From Clostridiales bacterium SIT11 (GTDB lineage Bacteria > Bacillota > Clostridia > Tissierellales > Peptoniphilaceae): a stretch of 64,000 nucleotides of DNA. Position numbers and translations under genes: made by a program. Under the pieces are notes generated by a model. It searched no databases. It was not told where the DNA came from and was given only the letters and a program-made list of their open reading frames with translations. This document shows positions 1-64,000 of this stretch, in pieces; position 1 is the stretch's first letter, and each line of letters begins with the position of its first letter. The DNA is taken from the NCBI GenBank assembly GCA_001299455.1, contig CYUK01000003.1:992001-1056000 (forward strand), given 5' to 3'.

Positions 1-53
1 CCTCCACAAGTACAATCCTTCTCTCTTTTTTCTTTCTTACCAAATAATCTCAT
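1..53 (-). CDS. Start of thioredoxin-like small redox protein (partial)
   Basis: Only the first 17 codons are inside the window; the gene continues to the left. The visible N-terminus is MRLFGKKEKREKDCTCGG, a lysine-rich start leading into a Cys-x-Cys-Gly-Gly motif. The start is fixed by an AAGGAGG site six bases upstream of the ATG. Small thioredoxin or glutaredoxin-like proteins with such a cysteine-rich start are often encoded next to ArsP/DUF318-type permeases, and this one lies 85 bases downstream of such a permease on the same strand, so it is probably the last gene of the arsenic operon. The family assignment rests on context and the CxCGG motif only. Confidence 0.5.
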   Translation of the reverse strand, partial: MRLFGKKEKREKDCTCG

Positions 54-138
54 TTTTTCCTCCTTAATCCACACCTATTGTTTTCACAACAGCATATATT
101 TTTTACTTTCTACTTCATAGTTTCATTTTACTTGCCCA

Positions 139-1134
139 TTAAATTAAAATAGGGCTAAAAATGTTAAATAAATATCCTACAACAATGATACCAAAAATAC
201 AAATTCCTATGAATAGAAATAAAAGCTTTGGTTTAACCGCTTTTTTTAACATAATCAATGATGGTAGGCTGAGTGTTGTTACTGCCATCATAAAAGATAG
301 GACAGTTCCTAGTTGAGCGCCTTTTGCCAATAGAGCTTCTGCTATTGGTATACTTCCAAAAATATCAGCATACATTGGTACTCCGATAAAAGTTGCCAAA
401 ACTACTCCAAGTGGATTCTTGCTGCCTAAGATATTTTCCACCCAAGTTTGAGGAATCCAATTGTGGATCAATGACCCTATGCCCACACCTACTAAAATAT
501 AAGGGAAAACTTTTTTGAACGTGTCACTAACTTGCGTTTTAGAAAAATCAACCCTGTCTTTTAATGTTAAGCTTGGAGAGCTAATATCAACTTGACTGGC
601 ATTTTTTATAAAATCTTCTACATACCTTTCCATATGCATTTTTTCGATGAGGCTCCCACCAATTACAGCAATAATTAGCCCGAAGACGACATATGCTAGA
701 GCTATTTTGCCTCCAAAGATACTCATAAGTAAAATAAGGCTACCCAAATCAACCATTGGAGAAGATATTAAAAATGAAAAACTCACTCCAATAGGCAAGC
801 CAGCACTTGTAAAGCCCATGAATATGGGGATTGAAGAGCATGAACAAAAAGGTGTTACGGTGCCTAGTAAGGCAGATATGATATTTGCCCCTAATCCATC
901 AAAACGCCCCAGAATTTTTTTACTTCTTTCAGGTGGGAAATAGCTTTGTATATAAGAAATGATAAAAATCAACACGCAAAGTAATATTGTAATTTTTATA
1001 ACATCATAGATGAAAAATTGTACGCTTCCTCCAAGTTTTGAAGTCATATCAAGGCCAAGATTTGTTAATACTCCTCCTATCAATTCATTGAGCCATTTCA
1101 TTCCTAGAATTTGATCTTGAATAAAGTTCCACAT
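139..1134 (-). CDS. ArsP/DUF318-family permease
   Basis: A 331-residue polytopic membrane protein with about eight hydrophobic segments. The hallmark is the stretch TPFCSCSSIPIFMGF near residues 93-107, followed by AGLPIGVSFSFLISSPMVD, the cysteine-containing core of the PF03773 permease family. Members export organoarsenicals (ArsP) or other metal and metalloid species; the cysteines are thought to bind the substrate. It follows acr3 with only 17 bases between them, so it is probably co-transcribed with arsR and acr3. The exact substrate cannot be told from sequence; arsenic is inferred from neighbours. Confidence 0.85.
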   Translation of the reverse strand: MWNFIQDQILGMKWLNELIGGVLTNLGLDMTSKLGGSVQFFIYDVIKITILLCVLIFIISYIQSYFPPERSKKILGRFDGLGANIISALLGTVTPFCSCSSIPIFMGFTSAGLPIGVSFSFLISSPMVDLGSLILLMSIFGGKIALAYVVFGLIIAVIGGSLIEKMHMERYVEDFIKNASQVDISSPSLTLKDRVDFSKTQVSDTFKKVFPYILVGVGIGSLIHNWIPQTWVENILGSKNPLGVVLATFIGVPMYADIFGSIPIAEALLAKGAQLGTVLSFMMAVTTLSLPSLIMLKKAVKPKLLFLFIGICIFGIIVVGYLFNIFSPILI

Positions 1135-1151
1135 CTCTAACCTCTTTAAAT

Positions 1152-2210
1152 TTAAGATTCTTGATTTTCTAAAAACCAGTGTTTTGTATTATTCGCAATA
1201 TTTACTAAGAATAACATAACTGGTACTTCAGTAAGAACACCTACAGTGCAGGCTAATGCAACTGGTGAATCTATCCCAAATATTGCTATTGCAACAGCTA
1301 CAGATAATTCAAAAAAATTTGAAGCTCCAATCATGCCTGCTGGTGCTGCTATTTCAAAGGGTAGGCCTACTTTTTTGCTTAACCCATAGGCTATAGTAAA
1401 AATTAGGAATGTTTGAAGGGTAAGGGGAATAGCTATCAATAAAATATGAAATGGGTTTTCTAAAATTACATTTGCTTGTGAAGAAAATATAATGATTAGG
1501 GTCAATAGTAGTCCAACTGTTGTCATTCCGTCAAATTTACTTAAAAATTCTTTTTCAAAATAATCCTTTCCTCTTTTATCAATTACTATTTTCCTTGTGA
1601 TGGCACCTCCTAATAATGGAATAGCAACAAATAAAAACACACTAATAAATAATGTGCTATAGGGTACTACAACATTAGATACGCCTAATAAAAACTTCAC
1701 GATAGGTACAAAAGCAAGTAAAATAATTAAATCATTTGTGGCTACTTGAACCACAGTGTAAGCAGGGTCACCCTTTGTCAGAGTCGACCACACAAAAACC
1801 ATCGCAGTACATGGCGCAGCTCCAAGCAAAACAGCCCCCGCTAAATAATCATTGGCCAAATCATTAGGAATGATATTTTTAAATATAATAAAGAAAAACA
1901 AATAAGCTATTCCAAACATAGTAAATGGTTTTATTAGCCAGTTAACAGCCCATGTTACAAATAGGCCTTTTGGATTTTCTCTAACTCTTTTTATACTTTG
2001 AAAATCTACTTTCATCATCATTGGATAAATCATAATCCAAATTAATATTGCTATCGGCACAGATATACCTGCAATTTGCATTTTACCTAAGGCAGATGGG
2101 ATTATAGGTATATATTTTCCTATAAGTACCCCCACAATCATGCAAAATAATACCCATAAAGTTAGGTATTTTTGAAATACATTAATTCCTTCATTCTTAT
2201 TTTTTTTCAT
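1152..2210 (-). CDS. acr3: ACR3-family arsenite efflux transporter
   Basis: A 352-residue protein with about ten membrane segments. The motif GAAPCTAMVFVW near residue 131 carries the conserved cysteine of ACR3 arsenite/antimonite exporters, and TNDLIILLAF follows, also typical. Such proteins expel As(III) using the proton gradient. The start is supported by a GGAGGAAGAACT-type site directly upstream. It lies 61 bases after the ArsR-type repressor and 17 bases before the ArsP-type permease, giving an arsR-acr3-permease operon. Length matches the family. Confidence 0.92.
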   Translation of the reverse strand: MKKNKNEGINVFQKYLTLWVLFCMIVGVLIGKYIPIIPSALGKMQIAGISVPIAILIWIMIYPMMMKVDFQSIKRVRENPKGLFVTWAVNWLIKPFTMFGIAYLFFFIIFKNIIPNDLANDYLAGAVLLGAAPCTAMVFVWSTLTKGDPAYTVVQVATNDLIILLAFVPIVKFLLGVSNVVVPYSTLFISVFLFVAIPLLGGAITRKIVIDKRGKDYFEKEFLSKFDGMTTVGLLLTLIIIFSSQANVILENPFHILLIAIPLTLQTFLIFTIAYGLSKKVGLPFEIAAPAGMIGASNFFELSVAVAIAIFGIDSPVALACTVGVLTEVPVMLFLVNIANNTKHWFLENQES

Positions 2211-2271
2211 AGTTCTTCCTCCTCGTTAGTATAGATACATTTAAATGTTTCTATGTGTAGTGCAGAAAAAT

Positions 2272-2583
2272 TTACTTCGTCCAAGTGTGACAAATACATT
2301 CCTCTCCGCTATTAAATATTTCCTTTAAGTCGGATTGCATCTCCTTCAGAATCTTCTTATTGGCAATGTAATATATGTTTTTTCCTTCTCTACGACTGAT
2401 CACTAGATTAGCATCCTCTAATCTTTTCATATCATTCGATAGTGTTGGTTGTGTTATATCGAATTGCTCTAATATCTCACAAGCACAAAACTCATTGCAA
2501 GATAACATATCTATAATTTCTAATCGTTTTGGATCACTCAAAACTTTTAATTTTTTTGATATCTCTATATATTTATTCTTCAT
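2272..2583 (-). CDS. arsR: ArsR/SmtB-family metalloid-responsive repressor
   Basis: A winged-helix repressor of 103 residues. The DNA-recognition helix is ITQPTLSNDMKRLEDANLV, and the start of the preceding helix holds CNEFCACEIL, whose Cys-x3-Cys-x-Cys layout resembles the As(III)-binding cysteines of classical ArsR. A further CICHTWTK lies at the C-terminus and could add ligands. I chose the start at 2583 because AGGAGG sits seven bases upstream; a longer reading to 2640 would run through the promoter. The repressor probably shuts off its own operon and releases on arsenite binding. Confidence 0.9.
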   Translation of the reverse strand: MKNKYIEISKKLKVLSDPKRLEIIDMLSCNEFCACEILEQFDITQPTLSNDMKRLEDANLVISRREGKNIYYIANKKILKEMQSDLKEIFNSGEECICHTWTK

Positions 2584-2611
2584 GTAAACCTCCTTCCTCT
2601 TTTCATATAAG

Positions 2612-2640
2612 ATTATACAAATCATATAGAAGGTTGTCAA
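2612..2640 (-). promoter_or_regulatory. Consensus promoter of the arsenic operon with likely ArsR operator
   Basis: On the minus strand TTGACA (2640-2635) and TATAAT (2617-2612) are separated by exactly 17 bases, a perfect vegetative promoter. The spacer and -10 lie within an imperfect inverted repeat, ATATGATT then AATCTTATAT, which is a plausible ArsR operator. The arsR start codon is about 30 bases downstream. Operator function is inference. Confidence 0.85.
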
Positions 2641-3162
2641 TGTGTTTTTCCTTTATTTCTTAAAATAATTTTTATTGTTTCCTTTTCACCATCTCAACTC
2701 ATTTATATCTATAAACTTGCCTTATCGCTGTGCATTATCCCTAATTTTATTCTTTGAACTATATTCTCACTCTTTCTAAGATTCTCATCATAAAGATTTC
2801 TCCTAGCTGATTTTTGTTCTTGAATTTTTTTAATACCTTCTTCCTCTCAATAATTGCTTCACAGTTGTCTTTTGCAAGCTAATAATTTTCTTTTTCAAGT
2901 TCTTTGACAATGCTTATGATGCTTTTCTCTTCTAAGTGCTAATTAAATATTTTCCTGATGCAATATTAATATAATATATATAAGCTTCCAATTGGAATCA
3001 TAAGATGTAAGTCTAGTTAAAGCAGATATTTGTGCAATTAAACTGGTTAACATGTGAAAATAGGCTAAGAAATCTAGTTGTAAAAACCAAATCTCTATTC
3101 TTAAAATCAACTACCTAATTATTACTGTTAAAATTTTCGCCCTTTACTTTTTTCATTCAAAA
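2641..3162. other. Gene-free AT-rich stretch with decayed coding traces
   Basis: No intact gene. On the minus strand between about 2,740 and 2,940 there is a coiled-coil-like reading (HLEEKSIISIVKELEKENY, a TAG stop, then LAKDNCEAIIERKK) that looks like decayed coding sequence, and a second open stretch between about 3,100 and 2,950 includes LTRLTSYDSNWK. I recognise neither. Both lack a start and ribosome binding site, so they are best seen as remnants of lost island genes. Confidence 0.35.
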
Positions 3163-4806
3163 TTACTCTGATCTCAACTTTCTGACTTCTTCTTTTAATT
3201 GCTCATTTTCTTTTCTTAGTGCTTCATTAATAACATTATTTGAATTTTTCCGCCAATTCAGTATATCTAATACCACTTTATACAGATTGGGATTATTAAT
3301 AATAACCACTTCTAGTTTATCTCTAACTCTTGTTAACGCTTCAAAGTAACAGCTGAATTCATCGTATGGATAATTTCTATAATCATCACTTTCTTTATAG
3401 TTAGACGCCAATTTAGCCGTTTCTTTATCGTAAAAAATATACTCATCAAATATCACAATGACATTGTTATATTCTTTTCCTATAACATCATGGATGTTTT
3501 TTGAATTAAATACAAAATTTTTCCTTTGCCTTCTTCCTGTGGTTTTTGTACTATATTCCGTTAATTCAATAGGTATAAATTGGTCATGACGATACCTATG
3601 CTCTATATAATCTGATGCCCCTTCTCTATGATTAAAGTATTTAACAGTTACTTTTTTATAATCAGCTGGTTGACTCTCTCTATCCGTAGGTTGTAATATT
3701 TTTCTAATAAACCACGACATCTCATTATTTTGTCTAATCTTATCACCTAGAAAATAATTAGTAATTTTTATATCTTGATTAAGTTTATCTTCTATATTTA
3801 ATGTTTTCTCAGTAGGATGTAGTGTTTGTTTTTTGTCGACACTATAAACAACTAGTTCTACGTCTAAATTTATTAAAATATTATGCTGCTCTTCTCTAAC
3901 TCTTTGAAATTCATCAAATAAAACAACATCATACTTTCTAAGCTGTGAAAAATCAGAACTTATTGACTTAATATCAAAAATATCAAAGTTATGAATTCTA
4001 CTTAATTCTCTGAAGTTCTCTAATTTACCACAAAAAACTAAAATTACTTTTTTACCTTGTTTTATAAATTCTGCGGCTAAATCAAATAGTACAAGTGATT
4101 TTCCAGTGCCTGCCCTGCCCGACACACTATGATATACCGATCTAGATTTTAATATTTTATCGACTACTTCTCTTTGTTCCTGATTTAAGTAGTAAGAGTT
4201 CTTTACGAATTTTTCAGGCTCACTATAAGGAGATATTATTAAATCTTCTGGTTTTATCATTTCAAGCTTATTACATTCAATGTAGTCACTTGATATATCT
4301 AGAATCAAGCTGGAAAATCCTACTTCTACCAACTTATAATCTTTATTTGAACAACCATCAGTTGGAACTAACCTATACAATTTTTCATCACTTAAAACAT
4401 ATGTATAATTAATTACATTTTCTGTGCAATTTAATAAAATATGATTTTGTCTTCTTAAAGTATCTTCCAATTTCTCCTTACCACCATTTGGATATTCAGA
4501 CTTTAATTCAATATTTAAAGTTGTATCTTTGGTAAATCTTAATAAATCAAATTCCTGATTAATAGCTTTACTGTTTTTATAACCATAATAAAAAGCTTCT
4601 TTTTGTTCAGAATTCAATTTACTGCTTATTTTTTCATATAAAGATTTAAAAGTTTCCAGTTCTCTATACTTTATCTGAACATTTGAAATATTTTGGATTT
4701 CGTCATCTAGAGTTGCTAAAAAGTTTTTCATTATATTTTCGTCATTATAGATAACAGGATTGCTTATAATTTGATATAAAGACTCTAAATTAATACTTCT
4801 ACTCAT
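3163..4806 (-). CDS. DUF2075-type ATPase/helicase with N-terminal PD-(D/E)XK-like domain
   Basis: A 547-residue protein. Residues 85-102 read EFDLLRF...LNIELK, matching the D...(D/E)xK pattern of PD-(D/E)XK nucleases (D87, E100, K102). From about residue 207 a superfamily 1 helicase-like ATPase follows: LNQEQREVV, Walker A GRAGTGKS (230-237), Walker B VVLFDE (294-299), a VDKKQ motif III, and late motifs GKEYNNVIVIFDE and EALTRVRDKLEVV. The last 25 residues form a short charged coiled coil. Nuclease plus SF1 helicase in one chain is a layout of several phage-defence proteins, and the gene sits alone in a decayed mobile region, but defence is inference. The nuclease call is weaker than the ATPase call. 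Confidence 0.75.
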   Translation of the reverse strand: MSRSINLESLYQIISNPVIYNDENIMKNFLATLDDEIQNISNVQIKYRELETFKSLYEKISSKLNSEQKEAFYYGYKNSKAINQEFDLLRFTKDTTLNIELKSEYPNGGKEKLEDTLRRQNHILLNCTENVINYTYVLSDEKLYRLVPTDGCSNKDYKLVEVGFSSLILDISSDYIECNKLEMIKPEDLIISPYSEPEKFVKNSYYLNQEQREVVDKILKSRSVYHSVSGRAGTGKSLVLFDLAAEFIKQGKKVILVFCGKLENFRELSRIHNFDIFDIKSISSDFSQLRKYDVVLFDEFQRVREEQHNILINLDVELVVYSVDKKQTLHPTEKTLNIEDKLNQDIKITNYFLGDKIRQNNEMSWFIRKILQPTDRESQPADYKKVTVKYFNHREGASDYIEHRYRHDQFIPIELTEYSTKTTGRRQRKNFVFNSKNIHDVIGKEYNNVIVIFDEYIFYDKETAKLASNYKESDDYRNYPYDEFSCYFEALTRVRDKLEVVIINNPNLYKVVLDILNWRKNSNNVINEALRKENEQLKEEVRKLRSE

Positions 4807-4860
4807 TTTATTACCTTCCCTTAAATTTATTCTTGTGATAAATACTTACCTATGATAATT

Positions 4861-5742
4861 TTATACAATATAATTGCTTACACTTTGCCCTTTATGAATA
4901 TATTTGCCTCTATACATAGAGTAGTCAAAATCTGACTTAATCGGTCTTGAATCATACCTATTATAATCTTCTATTTTATCAACTTTTATGTCTTTAAATT
5001 CAATCGGAAGTCCAGCTGATAATACAAAGCCTTTTCTATTTTGTACATGAAAATGTATATGAGGTTCCGTTGTATTGCCTGAATTCCCACACTCAGCTAA
5101 TTTTTGATATCTTTTTACTACATCGCCTTTTTTAACTAAAAAGCTATTTGGCTTAATATGGCAAATTAAAGAATACTCATTCTCCGTATGTTTGATTACA
5201 ATGTAATTTCCTCTGATATCTTTTATTAAAGGATCAGTAAAATTATTCCACATAATCTTACTATCTTTGCATTTATTAGATACTTCAATTACTATACCGT
5301 CTGCTGGAGCTATTATATCACTTCCGTAACAATAATAATTTTCTAGTTTTTTTCTGTCGCCACTATAACTTTTTAGTTTATCATCTAACTTTATGAAGTC
5401 ATAAGCATATCTTTGAGCGTTAATACTCCAAGAGTGTGATAATTCCTTATCCACACCTCCATTAACTACTGTCCATTTACCTTTGAAGGGTAAGGAGTAC
5501 TTAATATCGCTTTTATAATTTGAAACACTAGGAACAGGATTATTTTTTAATGGAATAGCAAACATTGCCAAAAGTTGTCCTAAGGATTGAATGAAAATTG
5601 GCAAAGTAAATAATAACTCAAAAAAACCAAATATCCAAAATCCCCATAAAATGTTCCATAACTGATTATCAAAAACAAATCCTAAGAAACCAAATAATCC
5701 TACCCATTTAAGATATGATGCTAATTTAATAAAAATCCTCAT
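4861..5742 (-). CDS. Membrane-anchored M23 (LytM-type) metallopeptidase
   Basis: 293 residues. Residues 10-65 are strongly hydrophobic and should form two or three membrane segments. The rest is an M23 domain: YGSDIIAPADGIVIEV (139-154), the YxxICH histidine at 195, and the PHIHFH motif (227-232). The usual first HxxxD zinc ligand pair reads RxxxD at 111-115, though a histidine stands at 103, so zinc binding needs care. M23 enzymes cut peptidoglycan cross-bridges or other glycyl peptides. The gene follows an XRE regulator (9 bases apart) and a small membrane protein on the same strand, suggesting a three-gene unit. Biological role unknown. Confidence 0.75.
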   Translation of the reverse strand: MRIFIKLASYLKWVGLFGFLGFVFDNQLWNILWGFWIFGFFELLFTLPIFIQSLGQLLAMFAIPLKNNPVPSVSNYKSDIKYSLPFKGKWTVVNGGVDKELSHSWSINAQRYAYDFIKLDDKLKSYSGDRKKLENYYCYGSDIIAPADGIVIEVSNKCKDSKIMWNNFTDPLIKDIRGNYIVIKHTENEYSLICHIKPNSFLVKKGDVVKRYQKLAECGNSGNTTEPHIHFHVQNRKGFVLSAGLPIEFKDIKVDKIEDYNRYDSRPIKSDFDYSMYRGKYIHKGQSVSNYIV

Positions 5743-5751
5743 AAATACCCC

Positions 5752-5952
5752 TTATTCATCTATAACGTTAAAAATATCTTCAATACTCACATTAAATATC
5801 TTGGCAATATTCCAAGCCAATTCCAAAGATGGATTATAACGGCCATTCTCTAAATTTCCTATCGTTTCTCTTCTAACACCTACTAATTTCGCCAAATCAG
5901 CTTGTGTAAAATTATACTTTGCCCTATATTCTTTTATTCTATTTTCAATCAT
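5752..5952 (-). CDS. Small XRE-family transcription regulator
   Basis: A 66-residue Cro/C1-type helix-turn-helix protein: NRIKEYRAKYNFTQADLAKL, then VGVRRETIGNLENGRYNPS as the recognition unit, and a short acidic tail. It has no effector domain. Its start overlaps the end of the upstream membrane-protein gene by eight bases, so the two are translationally coupled; the M23 peptidase follows nine bases later. Pairs of such a mini-regulator with a small membrane protein are common in Bacillota and are usually autoregulated. Confidence 0.88.
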   Translation of the reverse strand: MIENRIKEYRAKYNFTQADLAKLVGVRRETIGNLENGRYNPSLELAWNIAKIFNVSIEDIFNVIDE

Positions 5953-6310
5953 TTCTCATACCTAGCTTTTCTCTAAACTCATAAATTATAATTAATATCG
6001 TATATACGAAAATTGACATAATCCAAGCTAGTATTAAAGCAAATATAAAAGATTCATATAATCCATAATTTAGAACAAAGAATCTATATACACTAATTAT
6101 TGCAAAAACTAAATTTCCAGCAAAAAAAGAAAATGTAGCAGATTTATTAGTATAGTTTTCTAACATCTCATCAATATCAACAAATAGATATTTAAAATGT
6201 ATTAAAAATGCAAAGAAGCACAGAAATAGCTTATTCTCTGTATAGATTCCTAAAATTCCTAATGCTGATAACAGTCCTAAGGATCCATATATTACTTTGT
6301 ATTTATTCAT
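5945..6310 (-). CDS. Small multi-pass membrane protein
   Basis: 121 residues, with four hydrophobic segments at about 6-24, 28-44, 60-80 and 87-110. No family signature is clear to me; the size and the coupling with a mini XRE regulator resemble DUF3796/DUF2178-type membrane partners. It is the first gene of the three-gene unit that continues with the regulator and the M23 peptidase. A role in sensing or modulating the regulator is only inference. Confidence 0.6.
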   Translation of the reverse strand: MNKYKVIYGSLGLLSALGILGIYTENKLFLCFFAFLIHFKYLFVDIDEMLENYTNKSATFSFFAGNLVFAIISVYRFFVLNYGLYESFIFALILAWIMSIFVYTILIIIYEFREKLGMRND

Positions 6311-6481
6311 AGTTCATTCCTTTGTGGTGTATTTCTATCATTTTGATAAAATTGTACCACATTTCCGAATGTAAGACAATTAAAATCATCCTCTTTATAG
6401 TTCAATTAATCTAAGACCTAATAAAATGAATTAATAATATGAATTTTCATATGTTTATTCTCATAAATCATTATGAGCACA

Positions 6482-6522
6482 AAAATAGTCTTTTAGGATT
6501 TAAAATCAAACCCCAAAAGACT
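6482..6522 (-). terminator. Hairpin terminator in gene-free stretch
   Basis: On the minus strand AGTCTTTT pairs with AAAAGACT around a short loop and is followed by ATTTTTG. It would end a minus-strand transcript, fitting the fragment at 6549-6634 as the tail of a lost gene. Confidence 0.55.
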
Positions 6523-6548
6523 ACTATTTAACTGCATATTCTTTCTTT

Positions 6549-6634
6549 TTATATATCTAACTGAAAATCATCTATTCTCCATCCATACCACCCCATGCTT
6601 TTAAGCATCTTAGGTAAACCATCAAATCTATTTT
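6549..6634 (-). pseudogene. C-terminal fragment of an unrecognised gene
   Basis: A minus-strand reading frame gives RFDGLPKMLKSMGWYGW followed by RIDDFQLDI and a stop, with a stop also a few codons upstream. The composition (tryptophans, balanced charge) looks like real protein, and a terminator hairpin lies just downstream. There is no start codon with a ribosome site. I do not recognise the family. Confidence 0.3.
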
Positions 6635-6933
6635 AATTTATGAATTCATCTATTATTCTATTCTATAAAACAATAAAATTTTTACTTGCTTGCTTACATT
6701 TATGGGAGATTAGTGAGATTTCTTCACATTATTTCTTCTTATAACCAAAAGACCCGACTTGGTTCGCATTATACTAAAAGACGTGTCGGGTACTGTTAAG
6801 TATTATAATACACATTTAAATCTATTTTCAAATCTTCTATTTCTTATATAAATTTTCCAAACTAATTATATATAATTAGTTGTCTATTTCTACTACCTCA
6901 AAAATTAATAGCTAGACAAAGAGGAGGTATTAT

Positions 6934-7452
6934 TTAATGATTTCCGTCTAAGTAATCCTCAAATTGATATTCGTTCCCATCAACTTCTATAAACCATGTG
7001 CTATACGCATCTATATTTAAAGGATTATCATCAACAACATGAGTTTTATAGTAATTTGTATATATGCTGTACACGAGATTCTTTCTTGTGTCATTCTTAT
7101 CTATTTTCCCATTATAAAAAGAGATATATACAGTAGATACTTTTGTATCTTTTGCCCAATATTTGCTTGCAATTTCATCCATGTGATTGGTATTTATGAA
7201 TGGCTTTAATTTATCTATTACTTTTTTTACATCATTAATTTTAAAATTTTCAGATGTAACAAAATTAATATATAAGGATGGTCTTAAAAATTTTATTTGA
7301 ATCTCACCTATTTTTTTATTTGATGACATCTCTTCTTTAAACAAATGAAACTCTTCACTTTTAACATTTTTTTCTCTAGAACAAGCAGTTATAAATATCA
7401 ATCCTATCATTAAAGTCACTATTATTAAATGTTTCCTGTTTTTATTTTTCAT
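6934..7452 (-). CDS. Putative lipoprotein of unknown function
   Basis: 172 residues. A lysine-rich N-terminus, a hydrophobic core and the lipobox ITAC (cysteine 24) mark a lipoprotein signal peptide cleaved by signal peptidase II, so the protein should be anchored outside the membrane. The mature part is charged and shows no motif I know; the end is rich in acidic and aromatic residues (FIEVDGNEYQFEDYLDG). A weak AGGAGT site precedes the start. It stands alone between two gene-poor stretches of the AT-rich region and is probably cargo of the lost mobile element. Confidence 0.7.
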   Translation of the reverse strand: MKNKNRKHLIIVTLMIGLIFITACSREKNVKSEEFHLFKEEMSSNKKIGEIQIKFLRPSLYINFVTSENFKINDVKKVIDKLKPFINTNHMDEIASKYWAKDTKVSTVYISFYNGKIDKNDTRKNLVYSIYTNYYKTHVVDDNPLNIDAYSTWFIEVDGNEYQFEDYLDGNH

Positions 7453-7664
7453 TTAAAATACAACACTCCTTAAGCTAGATTCCCATCAAGACTAGATAGC
7501 TTTAGCAAAACATCTGATAGGGAGTTTAATTTAATTATTTGAAATCTATTAAATTATTTTGTTTTATAGCATTCGTCTATAAAAAATTTGAGACTATAAA
7601 TTAATAATCACATTTATAGTATACCATTACCACTTATATTAAAAACAGCCCCCTTACGGATTTG

Positions 7665-8840
7665 CTACTTGTTGATATCAATTTCAATTCCAGACTTGAA
7701 TATTACTTTTAATTTCTCATCATAAATTACTATCTTCTCTATAAGTTTCCTTACTAAATCTTCATCGTATCTTTCTATTTCTAATTGTTGACTGTCTAAA
7801 AACTCTTCTAATTCCATTAGCCTGCTTTGTTCATTCTTCTCTTCCGCTAAATCTAGAAGTATCTTTTCTTTTTCATTCCTTAATTCTTCCACTCTGCCTG
7901 CAAGGTCTGTGTAGTCTTTCTTGGCATTAGCAACTTTTAAAAGCTCTTCTTGAACCTCCAGCATTTCTTTGTCTATTTCTTTGATTTTGCTACTTCCATC
8001 ACCTGTGATGGCTTTTTCTATATTCTCTTTTATTATTTCTTTTAATTCACTGCTTTCAGATATAAGTTGATTAATGGCTTCTACGACTGCCTCTTGTAGG
8101 TCTTCTTCTCTTATAGTTCTTGCTTCACATGCTTCTGGTCCATGGGTTACTCTTGTACAACATCTCCAAACAGTGTACTTTTTCCCTCTGTTATTCCATG
8201 CTATTATCCTGTAAATATCCCCGCATTTAGAGCAGTAGACAATACTTGAAAGGGCGTATTTGCTTGAATAAATTCTTCTCTTTCCTTTGCCGCTCACCAT
8301 ATTGGCTCGTCTATCCATTTCTTCTTGGACTCGCATGAATATTTCTTTTGGTATGATGGCTTCGTGGCTATTTTCTACATAATATTGAGGTGCTATTCCA
8401 TCATTCTTTACTCTTTTCTTATTTAGAAAATCCACTGTATAAGTCTTTTGTAATAGGGCGTCTCCCATATATTTCTCATTAGTTAATATTTGATTGATGT
8501 TTGATACATGCCACTTCTTATTTCCTGCTCCATTTACTATCTTATCTTTTTCAAGTCCTTCTTTTATATCTCGTAGGCTTGCTCCTTCCAAGTATTCTCT
8601 GTAGATCCTTTTTATAATTTTTGCTTCTTCAGTAACGATGACAAGTTTTCCCTCTTCGTCTTTTGTGTAGCCTAAGAACCTATTATGGTTTACTTGGACT
8701 TGCCCTTGTTGAAATCTGTATTGAAAGCCTAACTTCACATTTTGCGATAAGGATTGACTTTCCTGTTGTGCAAGAGATGCCATAATGGTAAAGAGGACTT
8801 CTCCCTTAGGGTGTATAAGTGCGTCCTTGTAAACAAGAGA
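7665..8840 (-). pseudogene. Large serine recombinase lacking its catalytic domain
   Basis: The frame reads [19 protein letters not shown], the end of the resolvase catalytic domain, then the recombinase domain (from [14 protein letters not shown]), a zinc ribbon with [12 protein letters not shown] and WRCC, and a C-terminal coiled coil (residues about 265-325). The N-terminal part with the catalytic serine is missing: in frame upstream there are only about eight further codons and then the TAG stop of the broken DUF3847 gene. If translated at all, it could begin at the ATG at 8783 (372 residues). Such recombinases insert and excise integrative elements; this one cannot catalyse strand exchange. 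It documents a deletion that fused two parts of an element. Confidence 0.88.
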
Positions 8841-9134
8841 CTATTCCTCTATGTCCGTTTCTTCCTCTTGTGTTTCTGTATTTTCATTTTTCCTTTCTTT
8901 TCTATTCTCAATAATTTCTAAGATTTTTTGATTTATTACCTCTTTGATATTTGTGAATTAGATTAGTTGATAAAATTCGTCTTTGGTTAATTCTTTGCTT
9001 TCGGTAAAAATACTTTCAAATACTCCTCCTTTTTCATAAAGCCGTCTATCTCTCTTTTTTCGTGCTTCCTCTTTCTGCTGACTGATGAGCTTCTTTCTTT
9101 TATTTTGTAACTGCTTGATTTCTTCTTTTGCCAT
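8841..9134 (-). pseudogene. Broken DUF3847-type mobile-element gene
   Basis: The minus frame begins MAKEEIKQLQNKRKKLISQQ, continues KKRDRRLYEKGGVFESIF and ELTKDEFYQLI, hits an in-frame TAA at 8960-8958, then resumes FTNIKEVINQKILEIIENRK up to a TAG at 8843-8841. The lysine-rich coiled coil followed by (R)RLYEKG and LTxDEFYxLI matches small DUF3847 proteins of clostridial mobilisable elements. An earlier ATG at 9160 (MKDIEEKF) is out of frame by one base, so a frameshift may also have occurred. The family call is from memory of the pattern. It is directly fused to the recombinase remnant. Confidence 0.6.
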
Positions 9135-23434: not shown

Positions 23435-23959
23435 CTATTTATTACTAAAAAACCCTCTTGGTTTTTTAGGCAACTTGGCTAAGGGACCTTCTTCTAATAA
23501 AAATCGAAAGTCCTCTCGATTCCTTTCATTGAGGGCCTCCTTGGGAACATAAAAGCCTGTATTTTTTCCCAGTTGGAAAATATACAAGGACTCCGTTGGA
23601 TAGACCCGTTCAATATAGTCATAGGCAATTTCCAGATGGCTCTTCCCTTGGTGGATTTCCGCCCGGTCCTCTAAAAACCGGATCATAACCTGGCTTTCTC
23701 CTCCAGTGCTCTTTTCCTCCTGGCCCTTAAACTCCTTAAAAGTCATAGGCAGGACGAAAATCCCTACGAAAATGGAAATAAAACCTGCAGCCAAAAGAAG
23801 GCCGGCCACTAGTAAACTATGGTCCCTGTAGGTTAAATAGGAAAAAATTAAACCTAAAACTCCTACAGACAAGCCTGACATCCGTAGCTTACTTAAAACA
23901 GCTTTTAAAAATTCCTTGATATATGCATCTTTACTTTCATAATAGACAAGTAGCTTCAT
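23435..23959 (-). CDS. YcxB-like membrane protein
   Basis: 174 residues. Two hydrophobic helices (about 28-45 and 49-72) are followed by a PH-like beta domain whose IRFLEDRAEIHQGKSHLEIAYDYIERVY and FYVPKEALNERNREDF match the YcxB C-terminal pattern: a conversion from soluble strands to a VPK(x)AL turn. The function of YcxB proteins is unknown. It ends 24 bases before the 5'-nucleotidase gene, downstream on the same strand, so they may share a transcript. Confidence 0.72.
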   Translation of the reverse strand: MKLLVYYESKDAYIKEFLKAVLSKLRMSGLSVGVLGLIFSYLTYRDHSLLVAGLLLAAGFISIFVGIFVLPMTFKEFKGQEEKSTGGESQVMIRFLEDRAEIHQGKSHLEIAYDYIERVYPTESLYIFQLGKNTGFYVPKEALNERNREDFRFLLEEGPLAKLPKKPRGFFSNK

Positions 23960-24055: not shown

Positions 24056-24160
24056 TGTTGATAAAACCCTGTGGATAACTTGTGGATATGTTGATAACTT
24101 GAAGTGAATTCCTTGATTTCAAGCTTAAAAAGAAGACTTTTCTCCCAATTTTGTGGATAT
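24056..24160 (+). other. Cluster of DnaA boxes
   Basis: Five matches to TGTGGATAA in one orientation: 24056-24064 (one mismatch), 24070-24078 (perfect), 24081-24089, 24089-24097 and 24152-24160 (one mismatch each); weaker partial sites follow to about 24,180. The cluster lies between the rRNA operon terminator and the YcxB gene. See findings. Confidence 0.7.
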
Positions 24161-24240
24161 CTATGTGGACCTGGGGATAAAAAATCCCGAGCCAATGTTC
24201 AGGCCCAGGATCTTCTTATGTTATTTGAATTTTAAGTAAA

Positions 24241-24282
24241 CAAAAACCAGCTTCGTGAAAAATCATCAAAGCTGGTTTTTTT
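24241..24282 (-). terminator. rRNA operon terminator
   Basis: On the minus strand AAACCAGCTT pairs with AAGCTGGTTT and is followed by T-rich sequence, just after the 5S gene. Confidence 0.85.
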
Positions 24283-24400
<118 letters not shown>

Positions 24401-24423
24401 ACTATATGACTCCAATTTTCTCT

Positions 24424-29083
<4,660 letters not shown>

Positions 29084-61423: not shown

Positions 61424-62524
61424 TTATTGGCCAGCTAGGCGGACAGGAAGGACAAGATAAATATAGTCCTCATTTCCCTTGCCCTTTAAGATACAGGGAT
61501 TGACTGAGTCAATAAAGTGGCAGACAATCTCCTCTTCTGTAATGGCCTTAACTCCTTCCATTAAATATTTACTGTTAAAGGCAATGTCTAAGTTTCCATC
61601 TTCCCCCTTACATGGGAGGACTTCGTGGACATCTCCAATATCTGAATTTGATTCAATGTTTAATTGGTCTTTTTCAATGTGGAGCTTGACTAGATTAGCC
61701 CGTTCTTCTTTGGCCAGAAGATTGGCTCTTTCAAGGCCTTGGACAAAGTCCTTCCGGTTTAATTCCACATTGAGCTTGTGGTCTTGGCGGACAAGGCCCT
61801 TGTATTGGAAAAAGTCTCCATTAATGAGCTTGCTGACAAAGGTGGTCTTGTCCAGGTCTATTTTGATATAATTTTCTGTCAATTCCAGGGTAATGGTGTC
61901 CAAAGACTCGTCTAGGAGGCGGACAATTTCTGTACAGGCCCTGGCAGGGACGATGGCTTGGATCTTTTCTTGGTTGGGAATTTCCAGTTTGTTTAAGGCC
62001 ATCCGGTAGCCGTCTAGGGCAACAAAAGTTATGGCTCCTTCTTCGATATCAAAGAGGACGCCAGTTAAGGCCATACGAAGGTCGTCTAAACTTACGGCAA
62101 AGCTGGTGGCTCTTAGGGAGTTGACCAGGGATTCTCTAGGAAGAGAAATTTTCACTCCCTTGTCCACTTCTGGCATAGGAGGAAATTCCTGGCTAGACTG
62201 GCCCAGGATGTTAAATTCTGATTGTTGGCAGCGGATATTTAAGTTTTTTTCTTCCAGGTTAAAGTAAATCATGGAAGATGGGAGTTTTCGGATTATTTCT
62301 CCAAAGAGTCTGGAATTGACAACAAGGTCTCCTTCTTCTTCCACTTGAACAGGTAATTTTGATTTTATGGAGATTTCTCCATCTGTCCCCATTAAGGTAA
62401 GAAAATTGTCCTTAACCTGGATGTAAATTCCTTCCAGGATGGGAAGAGGTGTCCGGCCAGAAATTGCTTTTTGGACGGTGGTGATGGGACCGAGCAAGTC
62501 TTCTTTATGAATTTGAAATTTCAT
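61424..62524 (-). CDS. dnaN: DNA polymerase III beta subunit (sliding clamp)
   Basis: 366 residues, three repeats of the clamp fold. TPLPILEGIYIQV, LRMALTGVLFDIEEG and the C-terminal YLVLPVRLAGQ are typical. It forms the dimeric ring that tethers polymerase III to DNA. GGAGATACC precedes the start. Separated from dnaA by a 154-base spacer with DnaA boxes. Confidence 0.97.
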   Translation of the reverse strand: MKFQIHKEDLLGPITTVQKAISGRTPLPILEGIYIQVKDNFLTLMGTDGEISIKSKLPVQVEEEGDLVVNSRLFGEIIRKLPSSMIYFNLEEKNLNIRCQQSEFNILGQSSQEFPPMPEVDKGVKISLPRESLVNSLRATSFAVSLDDLRMALTGVLFDIEEGAITFVALDGYRMALNKLEIPNQEKIQAIVPARACTEIVRLLDESLDTITLELTENYIKIDLDKTTFVSKLINGDFFQYKGLVRQDHKLNVELNRKDFVQGLERANLLAKEERANLVKLHIEKDQLNIESNSDIGDVHEVLPCKGEDGNLDIAFNSKYLMEGVKAITEEEIVCHFIDSVNPCILKGKGNEDYIYLVLPVRLAGQ

Positions 62525-62683
62525 GGTATCTCCTTTACAGTTTCGTATAGATAATAGATAAGATTTAGTATTAGTAGTAGGGCCTGGTAAACTGTGGATA
62601 AGTTCCTAAAAGATGAAAATCTTAAAATTTTCTTCCGTGGACGGACTGTGGATAAATTCTGGACTTATCCAGACTTATTCACA
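62525..62683. other. Part of the replication origin: dnaA-dnaN spacer with DnaA boxes
   Basis: Two perfect TGTGGATAA boxes (62593-62601 and 62647-62655), TTATCCAGA (62665-62673) and TTATTCACA (62675-62683, reaching into the dnaA stop), one mismatch each. The stretch at 62,545-62,580 is AT-rich and could be the unwinding region. In many Bacillota the origin is split around dnaA; the other half would lie beyond 64000. Confidence 0.75.
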
Positions 62684-64000
62684 ATTCTCCTTTGACTTCC
62701 CGAAGCATTTGGTGGACCCTTCCTTGGAGGCTGGGATTTTTTTCTAGATCTTCGGAAATTTTTTCATAGGCATGGATGACTGTAGAGTGGTCTCTTCCTC
62801 CAAAAGATTCCCCAATTTTAAGTAGGGACAGGTCTGTATACTTCCGGCACATGTACATGGCAATTTGCCTGGGATAGGAAATGGCCCTGGACCGGTTTTT
62901 ACTGTCTAAATCTTCCAGGCTCAGATTATAATTTTTGCAAATCACCTTTTTAATAGAGTCTGGAGTAATGGGTTGAACCTTTTGGTTCTTGTAGAGATCA
63001 TTTAAGGCAAGGGAGGCTGTTTCAATATCCAAGTGGCCGGTGGTGAGCTTACTATAAGCTGTAACCCTGGAAAGGGCTCCTTCCAGTTCCCTGATATTAC
63101 TTTGGACCTGCTTGGCAACGTAATTAATCACCTCATCGGGGACTTGAAAACCTTCAGCATCAGATTTTTTTCTTAAAATAGCAATTCTCGTTTCTAGGTC
63201 TGGTGGAGCAATATCCACAACAAGACCTCCGGCAAAGCGGGAAATTAACCGGCTTTCCAGGCGAGGAATGGTATTCGGTGGCTTGTCCGATGTGAGGACA
63301 ATTTGCTTGTTGGCATTGTAGAGTTCATTAAAGGTATGGAAAAATTCTTCCATAGTCGTTTCTTTGTCGGCGATAAATTGGATATCGTCAATTAAGAGAA
63401 GGTCCATGGACCGGTATTTATGTCGAAATTCTTCATTTTTATTGGTCCGAATAGAATTAATAAATTCATTGGTAAACTGTTCACTGCTGACATAGAGGAC
63501 CTTTTTGTTTGGATCTCTTTCCAGGACTACATGGCCTATGGCGTGCATTAAATGGGTCTTTCCAAGGCCTACACCGCCATAGATAAAGAGAGGGTTGGCA
63601 TTGGCTTTTTCCAGACTATCTGCCACAGAGACGCTGGCTGCATGGGCAAATTCATTGGACTTCCCCACAACAAAGGTATCAAAGGTGTATTTTGGATTGA
63701 GCCGGCTCCGCTCTAAGAGTTGGTCCTGGCTGGTGGGCCCAAAGTCCTCTACCACCTCTCCTGTCTGGACAAATTCAAAGTTTAGTTTTCTTCCTAGTAA
63801 CTTTTCGAAGATATCCACCATATACTTGTAGTAGGATTCATTGGTTTTCACATGATTTCCAATAAAAAAGTTGGGACTGCTGATGTAGAGCGTATCTTCC
63901 GTTAGTTTGACTGGGGCCAACTTCTTAAAAAAAGCATCATAGGAAAGGGTTGAGATTTCTGTTTTTTTGAGATCACTGAGAAAGGATTCCCAAAGGTGAC
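62679..64000 (-). CDS. dnaA: Chromosomal replication initiator DnaA (5' end outside window)
   Basis: At least 440 residues; the frame runs open to the right window edge, where it begins HLWESFLSDLKKTEISTLSY, part of domain I, so the true start is a few codons beyond 64000. A start at 63920 would cut domain I and is wrong. Walker A GGVGLGKTHLMHAIGH, Walker B LLLIDDIQF, and the domain IV signature GGRDHSTVIHAYEK are present. It binds DnaA boxes and opens the origin. Domain II is very short. Confidence 0.98.
   Translation of the reverse strand, partial: HLWESFLSDLKKTEISTLSYDAFFKKLAPVKLTEDTLYISSPNFFIGNHVKTNESYYKYMVDIFEKLLGRKLNFEFVQTGEVVEDFGPTSQDQLLERSRLNPKYTFDTFVVGKSNEFAHAASVSVADSLEKANANPLFIYGGVGLGKTHLMHAIGHVVLERDPNKKVLYVSSEQFTNEFINSIRTNKNEEFRHKYRSMDLLLIDDIQFIADKETTMEEFFHTFNELYNANKQIVLTSDKPPNTIPRLESRLISRFAGGLVVDIAPPDLETRIAILRKKSDAEGFQVPDEVINYVAKQVQSNIRELEGALSRVTAYSKLTTGHLDIETASLALNDLYKNQKVQPITPDSIKKVICKNYNLSLEDLDSKNRSRAISYPRQIAMYMCRKYTDLSLLKIGESFGGRDHSTVIHAYEKISEDLEKNPSLQGRVHQMLREVKGEL

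Follow-up and report, generated by a model that had tools for sequence, protein, structure and literature searches.

An array of DnaA boxes between an rRNA operon and a YcxB-like gene

What purpose might a tight group of DnaA boxes serve when it lies 38 kb from dnaA, immediately behind an rRNA operon? The question is raised by positions 24056-24180 of the window, by which we mean the whole stretch of 64,000 nucleotides analyzed here (C3:992001-1056000 of a 1.76 Mb Urinicoccus genome; Peptoniphilaceae, Tissierellales). Defining a site as TTATCCACA with at most one mismatch, we found six sites in this interval, one of them perfect and all in a single orientation on the minus strand. The perfect box lies at 24070-24078; the other five, with one mismatch each, are TTATCAACA at 24056-24064 and 24089-24097, ATATCCACA at 24081-24089 (overlapping the 24089 box by one base) and at 24152-24160, and TTATCCCCA at 24172-24180. 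The preliminary description of this DNA had counted five boxes. Five do stand within 105 bp, and four of them within 42 bp, but the total is six, and the box at 24172 ends exactly where that description had ended the cluster.

The cluster sits between a probable rRNA operon terminator (24242-24280, minus strand), marked by a perfect 12-bp inverted repeat, and the start at 23959 of a leftward gene for a YcxB-like membrane protein (23435-23959, minus strand), 97 bp upstream of that gene. The rRNA operon occupies 24283-29079 on the minus strand (16S, 27557-29079; 23S, 24423-27279; 5S, 24283-24399). With 38.3 kb separating it from the dnaA-dnaN spacer and 38.5 kb from the dnaA open reading frame in a 1.76 Mb genome, the cluster has the oriC-proximal location of extra-origin DnaA-box clusters in Bacillota. 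Its earlier placement on the left arm behind the rRNA terminator holds as to the adjoining probable terminator, while "left arm" is merely nominal: the cluster is on the dnaN side of oriC because dnaA and dnaN point left. Elsewhere, positions 1-9000 of the window have a G+C content of 27-34%, compared with about 39-51% in the rest of the window, together with a strong negative GC skew, and look like acquired DNA.

The density of boxes exceeds chance expectation

To assess rarity at the level of the genome, we relied on pattern counts, on stretches of at least 700 bp around perfect boxes and on an evenly distributed sample of 400 kb; clusters that have no perfect box and lie outside the sample may escape notice by this approach. 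The 1,762,219 bases of the genome contain 678 sites with at most one mismatch, 42 of which are perfect. From this density, about 1e-6 windows with at least six sites in 125 bp would be expected per genome, and dinucleotide shuffles of the local spacer (20,000 runs) yielded a maximum of three sites. Within the 400 kb sample (141 sites), no 125-bp window held even three sites, and sites were about as dense outside open reading frames (0.38 per kb) as overall (0.35 per kb). Around isolated perfect boxes, each of 27 stretches had no more than one additional site within 125 bp. Clusters that include a perfect box fell into four groups only: upstream of dnaA (14 sites), the dnaA-dnaN spacer (four sites), the 3' side of tsaD/gcp (six sites, three of them perfect) and 24056-24180 (six sites). 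Equal density elsewhere, which had been named beforehand as grounds for doubting a role for the cluster, was thus not seen in the perfect-box stretches or the sample, where density was far lower. The density had also been put at no less than that of the dnaA-dnaN spacer; it is higher than that of the spacer with its four sites, although the other, larger part of oriC, on the upstream side of dnaA, has 14.

The interval at 24056-24180 is, then, a dense intergenic group of DnaA boxes outside oriC, and it is not a product of chance. Taken together, the possibilities that the boxes came together by chance or are sites of a protein other than DnaA appear very unlikely. Another factor with a similar motif could in principle explain the conservation described below, but the organism's own oriC has the same motif (14 + 4 sites), which is retained in a sister species, and the chance expectation is the minute figure given above. 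Nor are the boxes a general feature of rRNA operons, an explanation we rejected: only one of the four 5S-bearing loci of the genome has them, the three remaining 5S loci showing no box cluster. No cluster was found at the other 5S matches of the Urinicoccus massiliensis genome (G001) either; among the 5S loci compared, L131 and L130 are incomplete or of short length.

Two footprints are conserved at a fixed spacing

We examined conservation through one comparison between two Urinicoccus species, in which the counterpart of the cluster in U. massiliensis lies at C13:715255-715366. In ungapped alignment, identity is concentrated in two 34-bp footprints, at 24068-24101 (30/34 bases, 88%) and 24148-24181 (29/34 bases, 85%). 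The 46 bp between them (24102-24147) have kept their length but not their sequence (16/46), and together with the left flank (7/48) and right flank (13/49) they range from 15 to 35% identity, which is near random similarity. The spacings between boxes, 19 and 63 bp, are identical in both species. The perfect box and the boxes at 24089 and 24152 are retained, the 24081 and 24172 boxes have become ATATCAACA and TTATACCCA, each with two mismatches, and the 24056 box is lost, such that three of the six sites are within one mismatch in U. massiliensis and five within two. Loss of the cluster in close relatives, the other finding that had been proposed to count against it, is therefore not what we observed: both footprints and their exact spacing persist in this one sister species, while no retention was seen outside the genus. 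Two protein-sized blocks held at a constant distance, with drifted DNA between them, are the apparent mark of selection on binding sites.

The distance from the cluster to dnaA is also similar (38.5 kb in the window genome and 38.0 kb in U. massiliensis). This is not independent evidence, because the rRNA operon region is a syntenic block, with MutY, NUDIX and M18 peptidase genes flanking the operon in both genomes, and the kept 38 kb may be plain synteny. Synteny is broken on the YcxB side, where the gene 97 bp from the cluster in the window genome is 26.7 kb away in U. massiliensis; there, the cluster is flanked by the final gene of a sugar-transport operon, a gene that ends toward the cluster, and by a 72-aa open reading frame.

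This break bears upon the possibility that DnaA bound at the cluster controls transcription, through repression or activation of the leftward YcxB-nucleotidase genes or by curbing read-through out of the rRNA operon. The position just upstream of the YcxB gene would suit such a role, as would the fact that several DnaA clusters of B. subtilis lie at promoters, those of sda, ywlC and ywcI (PMC4447404). However, U. massiliensis keeps the cluster amid different neighbors, and a conserved role as a YcxB promoter is unlikely because YcxB is so distant there. Furthermore, the gap between 5S and cluster is 102 bp in the window genome versus about 500 bp in U. massiliensis, and a search for a promoter-like match within the cluster found none. 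We consider regulation of these transcripts unlikely.

The cluster lacks the hallmarks of an origin

Could the cluster instead be a secondary, relocated or relic replication origin? In favor of this idea, its box density matches that of the dnaA-dnaN spacer, and the doublet TGTKGATATGTTGATAA that it contains is shared by dnaA-dnaN spacers from other families, some of which have DnaA-trios next to it. Yet a complete oriC, in the order rpmH-boxes-dnaA-boxes-dnaN, is present at dnaA. There, dnaN (61424-62524, minus strand) is separated from dnaA (62679-63920, minus strand, with a 5' end that may extend beyond the called frame toward the window edge) by a spacer at 62525-62678 that has four sites, the last overlapping the end of dnaA; the larger half, with its 14 sites upstream of dnaA, starts just beyond the end of the window. 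In B. subtilis, the unit essential for unwinding consists of DnaA boxes adjoining DnaA-trios (PMC6669920), and the spacer carries a TAG-type DnaA-trio adjoining a perfect box, whereas the same search found no trio at the cluster. Similarly, GC skew turns positive at dnaA, at about 61-62 kb, and undergoes no lasting sign change at the cluster. A similarity search of plasmid records with the cluster gave no match. An origin here is highly improbable, and the earlier judgment that a second origin was the less likely reading is borne out.

We also rejected a plasmid or phage origin, given the lack of any plasmid match; a single 45-bp match to a microvirus-sized sequence (E 4e-3) was taken as chance.

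Box clusters elsewhere in the order

Of 249 genomes of the order, 9 contain the 17-base core of the first footprint, comprising the doublet TGTKGATATGTTGATAA. Outside the genus, the core occurs in dnaA-dnaN or dnaA-upstream spacers (G039, G134, G198 and G205), near dnaB-GNAT-purA (G035 and G051) and within a coding frame (G046). Behind rRNA operons, neither the 17-base nor an 18-base core motif was found in other genomes of the order (n = 249). Among named genomes, exact matches to the 20-base second core were limited to U. massiliensis and Legionella massiliensis, the latter being taken as chance, as was a match in G017 that falls in coding sequence and contains only one site. In the U. massiliensis genome the second core also recurs with one mismatch, as TTGTTGATATCTATGTGG, at C13:754928-754945 (L034:1501-1518), in the box-rich spacer upstream of dnaA, meaning that oriC and the cluster share an element in this species.

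Several box groups came to light in the course of these searches. Clusters in two other families, at L015:1489-1559 (G035, by a GNAT gene adjoining purA) and L069:5485-5602 (G051, by a GNAT gene adjoining dnaB), carry the TGTGGATATGTTGATAA doublet of the 24056-24180 cluster. Another genome (G121:C4:84116-84308; L068:10617-10809) has three like-oriented boxes 12 bp apart and a fourth 160 bp further on; a YycJ-like gene and an rlmH gene are nearby, and a dnaA match is about 8.4 kb away. In B. subtilis, a DnaA cluster lies upstream of yydA, which we take to be rlmH; we rejected orthology of that cluster with the one studied here, as rlmH lies at 917 kb, far from this locus. Like-oriented clusters near the origin thus recur in the order, at no single shared locus.

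A second extra-origin cluster in the window's own genome (G000:C3:902151-902272; L003:4152-4273) is the six-site group that directly follows the 3' end of tsaD/gcp, a position that in B. subtilis holds a strong DnaA-binding region (PMC4447404). In 16 of 30 Tissierellales genomes (loci L070-L099), the 530-bp stretch at the tsaD 3' end has at least four sites, whereas the 530 bp preceding the gene have two at most in all 30. Box starts in the tsaD cluster are spaced 9, 43, 12 and 9 bp apart, a pattern that is common in whole or in part to several families. A search of a limited set of papers for DnaA boxes together with tsaD found no report. This recurrence across many families of the order may be worth more than the 24056-24180 cluster. 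That spacing is kept at both extra-origin clusters suggests selection for an ordered complex and not simply for box number.

A probable role in DnaA titration

We favor the view that the cluster is an oriC-proximal, non-origin DnaA-box cluster that acts like those of B. subtilis, probably by titrating DnaA. We infer binding by DnaA, and with it titration and any effect on the timing of initiation, by analogy. Several DnaA molecules would load in one orientation onto two groups of boxes, some 63 bp from one another. Because the site is 38 kb from oriC, it would be copied soon after initiation, and the extra copies would then bind free DnaA, so that less of it is left to start another round; the B. 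subtilis clusters are believed to work jointly in this way. The preliminary description had arrived at titration or control of initiation by analogy with known systems, and the far lower density of sites elsewhere in the genome and the footprints kept in the sister species lend this reading support as the probable one.

Alternatively, the boxes may bind DnaA in some other role, whether datA-like hydrolysis of DnaA-ATP, DARS-like reactivation or organization of the origin region, options that are not separable from sequence. Two blocks at a fixed spacing would suit an ordered complex better than a loose sink, and the tsaD cluster has a fixed spacing of its own; on the other hand, B. subtilis has no known locus for nucleotide exchange or hydrolysis (PMC13220808) and is reported to lack IHF, which datA requires. 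Such a role seems rather unlikely for this cluster. A bolder proposal is that a genus-specific, two-footprint DnaA complex, an ordered array of like-oriented boxes near oriC, actively alters DnaA's nucleotide state or its availability when the replication fork moves through this site behind the rRNA operon. The cluster would then be a functional equivalent of datA or DARS in a Bacillota lineage, where none is known; we regard the proposal as a long shot.

The restraint of re-initiation in Bacillota, which manage without Hda, SeqA or datA, is incompletely understood, and the principal cis-acting evidence that the supply of DnaA matters comes from the six clusters of B. subtilis. The genome studied here appears to have just two box-dense extra-origin clusters with a perfect box, so that deleting both would test DnaA titration far more simply than the six-fold deletion needed in B. 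subtilis.

Comparison with known systems

Of the eight regions to which DnaA binds with high affinity in B. subtilis, two constitute oriC and one is downstream of gcp (PMC4447404). Deletion of the six clusters outside oriC causes early initiation, which is partly relieved by restoring one of them (PMC5295017, PMC13220808). The datA locus of E. coli is about 1 kb in length and acts with IHF in stimulating DnaA-ATP hydrolysis (PMC5295017), and B. subtilis is reported to have neither IHF nor datA (PMC13220808). Of the two analogies drawn at the outset, that with the Bacillus clusters holds up well, whereas datA is the weaker match because it acts with IHF, reportedly missing from B. subtilis.

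The bipartite oriC of Bacillota has the same box consensus as the Urinicoccus cluster and a similar density, but the cluster is situated away from dnaA and has neither DnaA-trio nor skew switch. Like datA, the cluster is non-coding and outside oriC, and datA has a comparable number of boxes (about five); it differs in its compactness, with 125 bp against an IHF-dependent locus of about 1 kb. The resemblance to the B. subtilis clusters (the gcp, sda, ywlC, ywcI, yydA and trmE regions) is closer, as these too gather many boxes into a short intergenic stretch outside oriC and the Urinicoccus genome likewise has a cluster 3' of tsaD/gcp. In contrast to them, the present cluster has six boxes all in one orientation and lies behind an rRNA operon, a position that is not among the top regions in Table 1 of PMC4447404. 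It appears ordinary in kind, of a type already known from B. subtilis, and is well supported for a claim drawn from sequence.
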